A stretch of DNA of 64,000 nt from Variovorax sp. OV700. Lineage in GTDB: Bacteria; Pseudomonadota; Gammaproteobacteria; Burkholderiales; Burkholderiaceae_C. Position 1 is the first letter of the stretch. Each line of letters begins with the position of its first letter. Below the pieces are notes generated by a model that was not told the origin of the DNA, ran no database searches, and saw only the letters and a list, made by a program, of their open reading frames with translations. The stretch spans positions 496,001 to 560,000 of the forward strand of contig NZ_FNDR01000001.1 in the NCBI RefSeq assembly GCF_900099805.1. The letters are read 5' to 3'. This document shows, piece by piece, positions 41,502-45,586 of this stretch. The position numbers and the translations under genes were made by a program.

Positions 41502-42634
41502 GTGGTTTTTGGACCCGCCTCATCTCCCTCACGCGCAAGGAATTTCGCCAGTTGCTGCGCGACCGCAGCAACCTGGCCATCGGCATCCTGCTGCCGATGG
41601 TGCTGATCCTGATCTTCGGCTACGGCATGTCGCTCGACGTGAAGAACGCACCCGTGGGCGTGGTGCTCGAAGACCCGTCGCCCACGGCGCACGAAGCCAT
41701 TGCCGGCCTGCAGCTTTCGCCCACCATCGCGCCCGTACTGCTGGGTTCCATGCACGACGCCGAGACCCTGATGCGCGAACGCAAGATCGACGGCATCGTA
41801 CGCGTGCCCTCCGACTTTTCGCGCGAGCTGGCCGCGGGCAATGCGCGCGTGCAGCTCATCGTGCATGGGGCCGACGCGGGCCGAGCGACCATCATCCAGG
41901 CCTACGTGAGCGGCGCACTCGCGCAAACGGCCCTGCGCCAGGCGGACCGCGGCGGCGGCACCACTGGCACCGACGCGCCCGCCACGGGCCGCGTGACGGT
42001 GGAGCAGCGCATGTGGTTCAACGCCGCGAACACCAGCACCTGGTACCTGGTACCGGGGCTCATCGTGCTGATCATGACCCTGGTCGGCGCCTTTCTCACT
42101 GCGCTGGTGATGGCCCGCGAATGGGAGCGCGGCACGCTCGAGGCGCTGTTCGTCACGCCGGTGCGGCCGGTGGAAATTCTGCTGGCCAAGATCATTCCGT
42201 ATTTCGCGGTCGGCATGCTGGGTTTGACGCTGTGCCTCCTGGCCGCGCGCTTCCTGTTCGCGGTGCCGATGGTCGGATCGCTGTTCGCGGTAGTGCTCAG
42301 CTCCATGCTCTACCTCATCGTTGCGGTGAGCCTGGGCCTCGTGATCTCGTCGGTCACGCGCAACCAGTTTCTTGCGAGCCAGGTGGCGCTGATCGCCACG
42401 TTCATGCCCTCGATGATGCTGTCGGGCTTTTTGTTCGACCTGCGCAACGTGCCCACCGCCGTGCGCGTGATCGGCCATGTGCTGCCCGCCACCTACTTCA
42501 TGGACCTGATCAAGACGCTGTTTCTCGCGGGCGACGTCTGGCCGCTGATCTGGCGCAACTGCGCGGTCCTGCTCGCCTATGCGGTGGGCCTGCTGCTGCT
42601 TGCCCGCGCCGTCACGCGCAAGAGCCTCGACTGA
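41498..42634 (+). CDS. ybhS: ABC-2 type permease (YbhS-like)
   Basis: 378 residues. First membrane helix near 22-42, a large periplasmic domain (about 45-180), then five more helices. ABC2 motifs: MSGFWTRLISLTRKEFRQLLRDRSNLAIGILLPMVLILIFGYGMSLD at the N-terminus and MAREWERGTLEALFVTPVRPVEILLAK before helix 3. It forms half of the translocation path; the other half is the next gene, 13 bases downstream. Confidence 0.88.
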   Translation: MSGFWTRLISLTRKEFRQLLRDRSNLAIGILLPMVLILIFGYGMSLDVKNAPVGVVLEDPSPTAHEAIAGLQLSPTIAPVLLGSMHDAETLMRERKIDGIVRVPSDFSRELAAGNARVQLIVHGADAGRATIIQAYVSGALAQTALRQADRGGGTTGTDAPATGRVTVEQRMWFNAANTSTWYLVPGLIVLIMTLVGAFLTALVMAREWERGTLEALFVTPVRPVEILLAKIIPYFAVGMLGLTLCLLAARFLFAVPMVGSLFAVVLSSMLYLIVAVSLGLVISSVTRNQFLASQVALIATFMPSMMLSGFLFDLRNVPTAVRVIGHVLPATYFMDLIKTLFLAGDVWPLIWRNCAVLLAYAVGLLLLARAVTRKSLD

Positions 42635-42647
42635 AGGACGGCACTCC

Positions 42648-43766
42648 ATGACCGACTTTCTGCTGCGCATCGCGAACCTCTGCAGGAAGGAGCTGCTCGC
42701 CATCTTCAAGGACCCGGCGAGCCGCGTGATCCTGTTCGTTCCCGCGATCATGCAAAGCCTGATCTTCGGCTACGCCGCCACCTACGATCTCTCGAACGTG
42801 CCCTATGCGTTGCTCGACCAGAGCCGCACGGGCGCATCGACCGAACTGATTGCGCACCTCGACAGCACCGGCGTCTTCCACCGCATGGCCACGCTGCGCA
42901 CGCAGGCCGATATCCGCGAGGTGATCGACACGGAGAAGGCGCTGCTGGTGATCCAGATCGCACCCAATTTCGAGCAGCAGCTCAGTGCGGGCCAGCCCGC
43001 GGCCATCCAGCTGATCCTGGATGCGCGCAACTCCAACACGGCGGGGTCCGCGGCCGGTTACGTGAGCGCAGTGGTGGAGCACTACAACGCCGAGCTGCGC
43101 ACACGCGCCGGCGCGCCGCCAAGCCCGCTCACCATCGAGTCCCGCGCGTGGTTCAACCCGAATCTCCAGACGCGCTGGAACCTGCTACCCGGCCTCATCG
43201 CCGCGCTCAGCATGCTGCAGACACTGCTGCTCACCGCCCTCTCGGTGGCGCGGGAACGCGAGCAAGGCACCTTCGACCAGTTGCTGGTCACGCCGATGTC
43301 GCCGCTCGAAATCATGATCGGCAAGGCGCTGCCGCCCATACTGGTCGGCCTTGCGCAGTCGACGCTGATCCTGCTGGTGGCGCTGTTCTGGTTCCGCATT
43401 CCGATGGCGGGCTCGCTGGCCACGCTCTACACCGGGCTGGTTTTCTTCACCGTGGCGAGCGTGGGCATCGGCCTCTCGATCTCGGCGGTGTCGGCCAACA
43501 TGCAGCAGGCCATGCTCTACACCTTCGTGCTGCTGATGCCGATGATGCTGCTGTCGGGCCTGACCACACCGGTGCGCAACATGCCGCACGCGCTGCAGGT
43601 GATCACCATGGCCAATCCGCTGCGCTTTGCGATCGACCTGGTGCAGCGCGTGTACCTGGAGGGCGTGGGCCTGGCGACGGTGTGGCACAACCTCATTCCG
43701 CTGTCGATCATCGCCGTCGTCACGCTGCCGCTGGCGGCCTGGCTGTTTCGCCATCGCCTGGTGTAG
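42648..43766 (+). CDS. ybhR: ABC-2 type permease (YbhR-like)
   Basis: 372 residues. Same fold as the preceding permease: N-terminal cytoplasmic helix RKELLAIFKDPASRVILFVPAIMQSLIFGYAATYD, a periplasmic loop, then AREREQGTFDQLLVTPMSPLEIMIGKALP and the late LLSGLTTPVRNMPHALQVITMANPLRF. ATG 42648 follows the previous stop by 13 bases. Its TAG stop forms the left boundary of the 268-bp structured element; any insertion there left the reading frame intact. Confidence 0.88.
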   Translation: MTDFLLRIANLCRKELLAIFKDPASRVILFVPAIMQSLIFGYAATYDLSNVPYALLDQSRTGASTELIAHLDSTGVFHRMATLRTQADIREVIDTEKALLVIQIAPNFEQQLSAGQPAAIQLILDARNSNTAGSAAGYVSAVVEHYNAELRTRAGAPPSPLTIESRAWFNPNLQTRWNLLPGLIAALSMLQTLLLTALSVAREREQGTFDQLLVTPMSPLEIMIGKALPPILVGLAQSTLILLVALFWFRIPMAGSLATLYTGLVFFTVASVGIGLSISAVSANMQQAMLYTFVLLMPMMLLSGLTTPVRNMPHALQVITMANPLRFAIDLVQRVYLEGVGLATVWHNLIPLSIIAVVTLPLAAWLFRHRLV

Positions 43767-44031
43767 GGCCTGTGAACGCTATGGAAGGGGTCGCGAAGCT
43801 CGCCACAGCCCGCCCATCAAGGCGCGTGACGCCGTGCGTGCGTCGGCACGCACAAGGAGCGCAACGCCGAGGAGCGGGCTGTGGCGAGCTTCCCTGCGGG
43901 TTGTTTCGCCAAGGGGCCGTCTGCGGCGTTGCTCGCGCTTGCAAGGCCAAAGCCTTGCTGCGCACGGGCGCCTTGCATACAGCCCCTTGGCGAAGCAACG
44001 CGATCCCCTTCCATAGCGTTCACAGGCCCTA
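43764..44031. mobile_element. 268-bp MITE-like structured element
   Basis: Perfect 27-bp terminal inverted repeats, 43764-43790 (TAGGGCCTGTGAACGCTATG...) and 44005-44031, both ending in TA. Inside are two long hairpins: 19-bp perfect arms 43795-43813 / 43874-43892 (enclosing GTGCGTGC-GTCG-GCACGCAC at 43834-43853), and 18-bp arms 43900-43917 / 43982-43999 with one mismatch (enclosing GCAAGGC-CAAA-GCCTTGC at 43941-43958). It resembles a non-autonomous transposable or repeat element with TA target sites. Small frames inside are not convincing genes. Confidence 0.8.
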
Positions 44032-44047
44032 AACCCGGGAGCACCGC

Positions 44048-45586
44048 ATGTCTGCATCACGCACCCTCTTCTTCTCCTGTTCAGTTCTCGCGCTTCTTCT
44101 TGCAGGTTGCGCCATGGGTCCCGACCATCGGCCCACGGAGGCACAAACGCCGGCCGATTGGTCCGCATGGCACGGCGGCTCGCAGACCTTGCTCGGCACC
44201 GAGCGGACGGCGGCGCCCACGGCCGCCGCATCGGGCGACTGGAGGGCCTTCCACGATCCGCTGCTCGACCGTCTGCAGGCACGCGCGCTGGAGGCCAACC
44301 ATGACCTGCAGACCGCCGCCCTGCGTTTTGCGCAAAGCCGCGTCCAGCGCACCGTGGCGGCGGCGCTGCAAGCACCGCAGCTCAACGCCAGCGGCAGCGT
44401 CAACCGGCAGCGCCAGAGCGAAACCGGCGCCGCCACCCGAATGATCGATGCGCTCGGCTCTTCGGTGTCCAACCGCGACCAGCTGATCCGCACCCTGAGT
44501 GAGCCGTACAACCTCTACCAGGCGGGATTCGATGCGTCATGGGAGATCGACCTGTGGGGCCGCGTGCGGCGCAGCATCGAGGCCGCTGATGCGGACGCCG
44601 GCGCGTCGGCCGCCCTGTTGCAGCAGGCGCAGCTCAGCGTGCAGGCTGAGGTGGCGCGCAACTACTTCGAGCTGCGCGGTGCGCAGCTCGAACTGCGGCT
44701 GGCACGCGCCGACATTTCGGCGGCGGCCGAGTCGCTCGAGCTGGTGCAGGCGCGCGCGGACGGCGGCCTGGTCACCGACCTGGACCCGACACGCCAGCGC
44801 ACGCAACTGGCCGAGCTGCGCGCACGCATTCCGATGCTGTTGCAACAGGAGGCCCAAGCCATGAACCAGATCACGCTGCTCACAGGTGCGCAGCCCGGCG
44901 CGCTGAACGCCGACCTCGCTCAGCCCTCCGACGGCGCAGGCGAAACGTTCGAAGCACTTCGTGGGCCGCCGCTGCCCGATCTTGCGTTGGGCCTGCCTTC
45001 CGACGTGGCGCGCCGACGCCCTGACATTGCCGCGGCGGAAGCGCAGCTGCATGCCGCGACGGCGCGCATCGGCGTGGCCGCGGCCGACCTCTATCCGCGC
45101 GTGACGCTCGGTGCGGGCTTCGGCTACGAATCCGCCGGCAGCGAGCGCTTTGGCGAATGGGGTAGCCGGCAATGGCACATCGGCCCTTCCATCAGCCTCC
45201 CGATCTTCGACAACGGCCGGCGTCGCAGCACCGTAACCCTGCGCGAACTGCAGCAGCAGGAAGCCGCGGTGGCTTTCCAGCAGACGGTGCTCAAGGCGTG
45301 GCACGAGATCGATTCGGCGCTGAGCGCCTACACCGCCGAACGCCAGCGCCATGCGGAACTGGTCGAGCGCGAGCGCAACAGCCGCGACGCGCTCACGCTC
45401 GCGCATGCGCGCTATGCGAACGGGCTCACTGATTTCGGCGTCGAGCTCGACGCCCGCCGCGCACTGTTGCAAGCCCGGCGCGACCGGGTGCAAAGCACGA
45501 GCCGCATGGCGGTTGGCCTGGTGGCCGTCTACAAGACACTCGGCGGCGCCATGCCGCCCGCCGCCGCCGTTGCACCACCCGGCTAG
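44048..45586 (+). CDS. Outer-membrane efflux channel lipoprotein (NodT/OprM family)
   Basis: 512 residues. Signal and lipobox LAGC (Cys21), followed by MGPDHRPTEAQTPADW. Repeated OEP motifs: two helix-rich halves with YQAGFDASWEIDLWGRVRRSIEAADAD (start of the first barrel strand set) and GLPSDVARRRPDIAAAEAQLHAATARIGVAAADLYPRVTLGAGFGY. It forms the TolC-like exit duct for the YbhGFSR-type exporter. It sits 16 bases after the structured element on the same strand. Its stop overlaps the convergent ROK gene by 4 bases. Confidence 0.92.
   Translation: MSASRTLFFSCSVLALLLAGCAMGPDHRPTEAQTPADWSAWHGGSQTLLGTERTAAPTAAASGDWRAFHDPLLDRLQARALEANHDLQTAALRFAQSRVQRTVAAALQAPQLNASGSVNRQRQSETGAATRMIDALGSSVSNRDQLIRTLSEPYNLYQAGFDASWEIDLWGRVRRSIEAADADAGASAALLQQAQLSVQAEVARNYFELRGAQLELRLARADISAAAESLELVQARADGGLVTDLDPTRQRTQLAELRARIPMLLQQEAQAMNQITLLTGAQPGALNADLAQPSDGAGETFEALRGPPLPDLALGLPSDVARRRPDIAAAEAQLHAATARIGVAAADLYPRVTLGAGFGYESAGSERFGEWGSRQWHIGPSISLPIFDNGRRRSTVTLRELQQQEAAVAFQQTVLKAWHEIDSALSAYTAERQRHAELVERERNSRDALTLAHARYANGLTDFGVELDARRALLQARRDRVQSTSRMAVGLVAVYKTLGGAMPPAAAVAPPG

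Follow-up and report, generated by a model that had tools for sequence, protein, structure and literature searches.

The window, a stretch of 64,000 nucleotides from Variovorax sp. OV700, carries a 268-bp palindromic element between two open reading frames, the upstream one read from its translation as an exporter permease and the downstream one as an outer-membrane channel (Table 1). The element proper, GGG...CCC, occupies 43766–44029 (264 bp) and is flanked by TA on each side; the in-frame stop of the upstream frame is the TAG at 43764–43766 that is formed at the element's left end, and the frames that cross the 268 bp in the ORF listing are probably chance ones. The initial annotation had described perfect 27-bp outer repeats, TA at both ends, a left TA lying in the upstream stop codon and a possible three-way fold, all of which are borne out by the sequence and by the fold predictions below. 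The two inner arms it had reported are also present, although they are longer and less perfect than the 19 and 18 bp given, pairing 43795–43818 with 43869–43892 (92% complementary) and 43897–43924 with 43975–44002 (86%). The outer bases of the left terminal repeat are common to IS5-family insertion sequences, whilst its inner bases are variable with their pairing preserved.

Table 1. Features of the element and its neighbouring genes (positions in the window).
Feature	Position	Strand	Remark
Upstream ORF, putative exporter permease (from its longest start)	42579..43766	+	translation reading
Element including both TA	43764..44031	.	268 bp
Left TA, putative target duplication and TA of the TAG stop	43764..43765	.	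TA duplicated at other copies
Perfect 27-bp left terminal inverted repeat	43764..43790	+	
Arm A hairpin	43795..43892	+	complementarity, fold, covariation
Arm A conserved 52-nt module, CAAGGCGC...GCAACGCCG	43818..43869	+	pattern match (G000:C30:539818-539869)
Central mini-hairpin CCC-TGC-GGG	43892..43900	.	
Arm B hairpin	43897..44002	-	complementarity, fold, covariation
Arm B conserved 52-nt module, arm A motif on opposite strand	43924..43975	-	pattern match (G000:C30:539924-539975)
Right terminal inverted repeat	44005..44031	-	
Right TA	44030..44031	.	
Downstream ORF, read as outer-membrane channel	44048..45586	+	translation reading

The predicted RNA fold of the element has a free energy of −208.8 kcal/mol (z −16.8), the DNA fold has a z of −16.4, and a fold this stable was not reached by any of 200 shuffles; the two predictions are alike, and each has an outer stem, a small hairpin at the centre and two arms. 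Alignment A1 contains 86 copies, 7 of the 93 non-redundant copies having been omitted for weak orientation or similarity; the aligned copies have the hairpin arms in common while their stems vary freely, with 96.6% of cells paired, two-sided changes at 74 of the 83 base pairs and a length that stays near 268 bp. Two-sided cells number 1582 versus 431 in shuffles, the covariation score is 0.605 versus 0.158, and sliding the structures along the alignment lowers pairing to 35–44%. Between nearest neighbours, two-sided Watson-Crick changes make up 6 of 42 paired-column differences at 97–100% identity, 62 of 149 at 93–97%, 72 of 123 at 88–93% and 40 of 77 at 80–88%. A chance palindrome is ruled out by the comparison with shuffles together with the matches in other genomes. 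At the gathering score, Rfam returned only tRNAs for the 10 loci searched; the best matches below threshold were a miRNA model (E 0.0005; 37.8 bits, threshold 114) and RF02966 (E 0.014; 30 bits, threshold 65.3).

Of 100 genomes searched in the genus, its own included, 53 contain matches to the element, as do 41 of 299 genomes of the family, belonging to 25 of the 141 genera; many matches are full-length and lie at different loci. Its own genome (G000, 6.48 Mb) holds one full copy, while G095 holds seven that are 97.8–100% identical, a similarity that points to recent spread. Full-length relatives also occur in Gammaproteobacteria: a scan of bacterial genomes for the end-sequence pattern gave at least 118 stretches, many of them gammaproteobacterial (for example Thiodiazotropha), with a complete end pair 264–275 bp apart in 28 of the 118 among the matches listed, and the Ca. 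T. endolucinida genome contains 159 exact 16-base ends. In a sample of 398 genomes from the phylum, an exact 18-base end was present in 25, and the reversed control pattern was absent among the matches listed. For the set of 149 copies, the length range of 267–274 bp is partly selected for, as copies were picked by end pairs 264–275 bp apart, with doubtful loci removed by hand; shortened copies of 44–233 bp are also present, some of which (among L111–L121) amount to barely more than two ends. Nine Thiodiazotropha loci (L187, L206, L220, L241, L248, L257, L277, L278 and L279) carry, once or twice, an extra mini-hairpin of about 23–29 nt, whose position inside the element differs between the copies read.

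Beyond chromosomes, a plasmid search returned two records, both from Variovorax and one full-length, and a phage search returned no matches to the element. Full-length end pairs lie on two IMG/VR contigs classed as viral (L302, L305). Paired ends were also seen in assemblies labelled as other phyla, namely L194 and L219 (a MAG labelled Maribacter) and L210 (an Acidobacteriaceae MAG), which may reflect either transfer or binning error.

When the flanks of 16 copies were joined, many matches spanned the predicted empty site. Thirty empty-allele loci, covering five copies, were compared with the occupied sites, and four of the five copies have one or more empty alleles with just a single TA at the point where, in the occupied site, TA stands on both sides (3/3 alleles for L015, whose occupied left flank has two extra bases, 2/2 for L126, 1/1 for L132 and 4/18 for L141), while none of the six alleles for L128 has TA at the junction. 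These alleles support insertion at TA for the four copies, and, with the dispersed full-length copies, they uphold the initial annotation's reading of the feature as an element with TA at its ends, one that is mobile and multi-copy in relatives. At the window's own site, element-free relatives read CTGA, ...CTGGT-CTGAACCC or similar, or are scar-like, so that a TA duplication is not demonstrable at this position. In G020, G082 and G011 (L080, L081, L086) the junction of the two flanking genes reads CTAGGGAGC or CTAGGAGC, possibly the deletion scar of a lost copy. The TA in the permease stop is occupied in G018, G000 and G090, which fall into two groups that each also contain element-free relatives; this patchy occupancy would correspond to repeated insertion, transfer or multiple losses.

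Copies are enriched at stop codons. Among 103 non-redundant genus and family copies, 63 lie on an in-frame TAG stop, compared with 26 of 100 other CTAG sites at the same loci (Fisher p 6e-7) and 2 of the window's 9 CTAG sites; 54 of the 63 have one end, and 9 both ends, on a neighbouring gene's TAG. Gene ends were here called from open length and codon-position GC rather than annotation, and the enrichment can result from removal of harmful insertions instead of targeting. By orientation relative to the neighbouring gene, 33 copies are A-side and 21 B-side (p 0.13).

Three insertion sequences (L195, L298 and L266) also carry the ends of the element. All of them encode transposase in two frames that match NCBIfam IS5_3, those of L195 and L266 also matching PF13340 and PF01609; L298 lies on a further IMG/VR contig classed as viral. 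The same ends are common to the element and L195, L298, L266 and L398/L402, which we take, by comparison with the description in PMC3281130, to be of the IS427 type. One Thiodiazotropha genome with 122 exact element ends contains two copies of such an insertion sequence, of 838 and 839 bp and with 2 differences, whose ends are GGGCCTGTTAACAAT and GGGGGCGTTAACAAT, the one a close match to the element end and the other diverged. Table 2 of PMC3281130, in the portion available, lists IS427-group elements of 832–865 bp with 2-bp duplications in all but one and two overlapping ORFs in all but one, and PMC4133298, likewise available in part, describes ISPsp10 as having duplicated TA and taken its stop codon from the target TA; by these descriptions the Thiodiazotropha insertion sequence fits the IS427 group. 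In G396, a matching transposase is present in an element-bearing genome, with one of the two ends of its insertion sequence diverged.

The interior of the element does not resemble that of a deleted insertion sequence: in blastn comparisons of three elements with three insertion sequences, 17–26 end bases align and all other matches are short and at chance level (E ≥0.27), which argues against derivation of the element from them by deletion. In the window's own genome, none of 16 candidates is an IS5_3 transposase, and in the genus and family, where 16 genomes were searched and 10 gave matches, none of the 30 IS5_3 loci taken from those 10 carries element ends with ≤1 mismatch. Eleven loci with an unpaired end match in a search of seven genomes (L100–L110) were considered as candidate insertion sequences and rejected: end pairs were sought in all 11 and ORFs listed for three, and no transposase with the element's ends was seen. 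G362 has sixteen IS5_3 transposase matches, several of them at contig ends.

The inner arms contain a module of 52–54 nt, CAAGGCRC...GCAACGCNG, that a pattern search also located outside the element with GGGCCTGTT ends. Elements whose ends are quite different carry it as well, some of them two-armed (about 268 bp) and others one-armed (about 160 bp). L439, L440, L441 and L614 have two modules within ends GGAGGCTGTCGGGC, GTACTCCTTCAACATG, TTACTAACCCTAACCC and AGAGCTCATTTCATAAATA and span 266–271 bp; L452 and L454, with ends GTGTACCTCGTC and GTGTAGTGTCC, have two arms and one exact module; and L623, L644 and L645, with ends AGAACGTGTTGACG, TGAGCCTATCTCG and TAGAGCGTGTTATG, have one exact module in a span of 268–269 bp, a length from which a second arm is presumed. 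Among 158 distinct elements, 127 span 264–273 bp and 8 span 157–161 bp, about the range of the one-armed forms; 136 have GGGCCTGTT-like ends (≤2 mismatches), and among the remaining 22 the arms are doubtful in a few cases. Of 16 one-armed elements, 3 lie on the same strand as the neighbouring gene, 7 on the opposite strand and 6 on neither.

The flanks of 413 distinct pattern matches are two-peaked in their pairing, and 234 of the 242 well-paired matches are 52–54 nt long. Because the arm analysis retained those 242 matches by a threshold of ≥11 of 16 flank pairs, a level attained as well by 312 of 5000 mixed flank pairs, their pairing of 90.9% is partly selected for, whereas the two-peaked distribution is unaffected; likewise, CAAGGCRC and GCAACGCNG are prescribed by the search pattern, and their invariance in A2 is therefore no evidence. 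Adjacent modules are convergent in 87 of 89 pairs, with a spacing of 106–108 in 84, so that in the two-armed form each strand bears one arm in the CAAGGC-to-GCAACG direction. The pattern was found in 147 of the 398 phylum genomes, chance matches in coding sequence included; six of these genomes have 22–53 matches each and no control match, controls elsewhere numbering 0–2 per strand. A further insertion sequence matching IS5_3, L386, has ends AGAACCTATCTCA, the same as those of the one-armed elements L620 and L621, and so connects, for a second time, an element bearing the core with a different insertion sequence. From the module's occurrence with different ends and from this link, a conserved core seems to travel on exchanged ends that match different transposases.

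Taken together, these observations make it highly probable that the element is a MITE (miniature inverted-repeat transposable element) inserted at TA by an IS5-family, IS427-type transposase supplied from elsewhere, its arms being a module common to elements with other ends. As the general description of MITEs has it, the element is short and has terminal inverted repeats and dispersed copies, and four of the five copies compared with empty sites show target duplication; non-autonomous transposition is well supported. In the proposed mechanism, a DDE transposase of this type, made elsewhere, would recognise the outer ends and insert the element at TA, preferably within C-TA-G. Since the first base of the element next to TA is a G, its insertion into either TAG or TAA would rebuild a TAG stop, and genes would on that account tolerate the element at their 3' ends. 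The two arms would be a conserved, structured, convergent module, and, the same module being present in elements with other ends, they probably serve the element or the host independently of any single transposase. Three parts of this reading are inferred, namely movement by an enzyme acting in trans, the exchange of ends and whatever function the arms may have.

The alternative that survives best, although we consider it unlikely, is that the element is kept mainly for an RNA fold that serves a host gene, for example by determining the end or stability of the upstream transcript at the stop codon, with mobility secondary. The stop-codon position, the strong and conserved fold, the conserved loop motifs and the provision of one arm per reading direction would all suit such a role, as would an excess of G-U over A-C cells, both overall (140 versus 87) and between nearest neighbours (83 versus 54), in counts that omit two mostly G-U pairs. 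The excess comes mainly from the arm A stem (47 versus 15), however, and is missing from the outer stem and the arm B stem (29 versus 31 in each), from which it follows that pairing is preserved largely as strict complementarity; this fits both strands mattering, as DNA or through transcription of both, and the pattern is compatible with the DNA and RNA levels alike and does not decide between them. The initial annotation's suggestion of a terminator finds no support in one consensus scan, which gave no terminator-like site in 43600–44200 (0.7 in shuffles).

Slow divergence at the window's site might also favour a host role: relative to the copy in G000, those in G090 and G018 have diverged by 3.4% and 3.8%, against 9–25% at four-fold sites of the flanking genes. 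The 295 coding bases immediately to its left, however, differ by just 1.0% in G090 (3/295) and by 4.7% in G018, and compared with this near flank the element does not clearly evolve more slowly. Presence of the element among relatives does not track permease distances, and as some closer relatives of G000 lack it, the slow divergence may reflect separate insertions; with the near flank equally slow in G090, it does not prove selection.

Far less probable is a REPIN-like hairpin that an HUH (RAYT) transposase moves as single strands and to which the outer repeats simply belong; two inverted hairpin modules and gene-end positions recall such elements, whereas the conserved outer bases match DDE insertion sequences and four copies have single-TA empty alleles. 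Less probable still is the IS630/Tc1-mariner MITE envisaged by the initial annotation from the TA at both ends, given that the insertion sequences found with the element's ends encode IS5-family transposases. A local palindrome without mobility, for which one could cite the presence of just one full copy in the genome that the window comes from, is negligible in view of dispersed full-length copies at unrelated loci with matching boundaries and empty sites.

The MITE reading can be extended, tentatively and with somewhat less than even confidence, to a proteobacterial superfamily in which a hairpin core of one or two arms with the 52–54-nt module has repeatedly acquired different ends, IS5-type and perhaps others. 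If so, a working arm would be presented whichever strand is read, and the core would be a general-purpose parasite or host-tolerance module and not one transposon's relic. The usual view of a MITE is that of a single transposon's shrunken relic; in this case the conserved part is the interior, across Beta- and Gammaproteobacteria, and the ends differ between subfamilies. Two questions thereby become testable, namely the selective cause of the fold and how non-coding elements switch transposase, and the stop-codon habit suggests how an element can adjoin genes without breaking them.

The initial annotation knew of no described family with this layout, and the open-licence literature and Rfam likewise gave no counterpart, although an existing ISfinder entry is possible; the end 14-mer was not found in that literature, and the core motifs combined with 'repeat' gave unrelated papers only, as far as their available text goes. 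The nearest relatives by end type and TA duplication are IS5-family MITEs and IS427-group insertion sequences (PMC3281130, PMC4133298, in the parts available), and the full-length insertion sequences with the element's ends, at 815–840 bp and with the transposase in two frames, resemble that group as these sources describe it. The element differs from IS5-family MITEs in an interior unlike that of a deleted insertion sequence and in a conserved two-armed core found also with other ends.

Among other families, compared by description, Correia/NEMIS, ERIC and RUP MITEs resemble the element in terminal inverted repeats, TA ends, a long stem fold and location near genes, but these and similar elements are presented in the available part of PMC2229807 as single stem-loops of about 100–200 bp, whereas the present element has an outer stem, two arms and conserved loop motifs and occurs in Beta- and Gammaproteobacteria. 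The CIR repeats of Caulobacter and Brucella likewise consist of a pair of long hairpin arms with a linker between them, an arrangement that the same portion of PMC2229807 contrasts with elements having a stem that pairs the 5' and 3' ends; the element has both. Structured MITEs are described in Thiomargarita (PMC4853749, available in part), and QMITE1 and QMITE2 of Coxiella are structured multi-copy MITEs of a gammaproteobacterium that differ in size and direct repeats, QMITE1 being without orthologues in other genomes according to the available text of PMC5896051. REP, BIME and REPIN sequences share an inverted pair of hairpin modules with the element. The element's modules are much longer than theirs, and its ends are of the DDE type.
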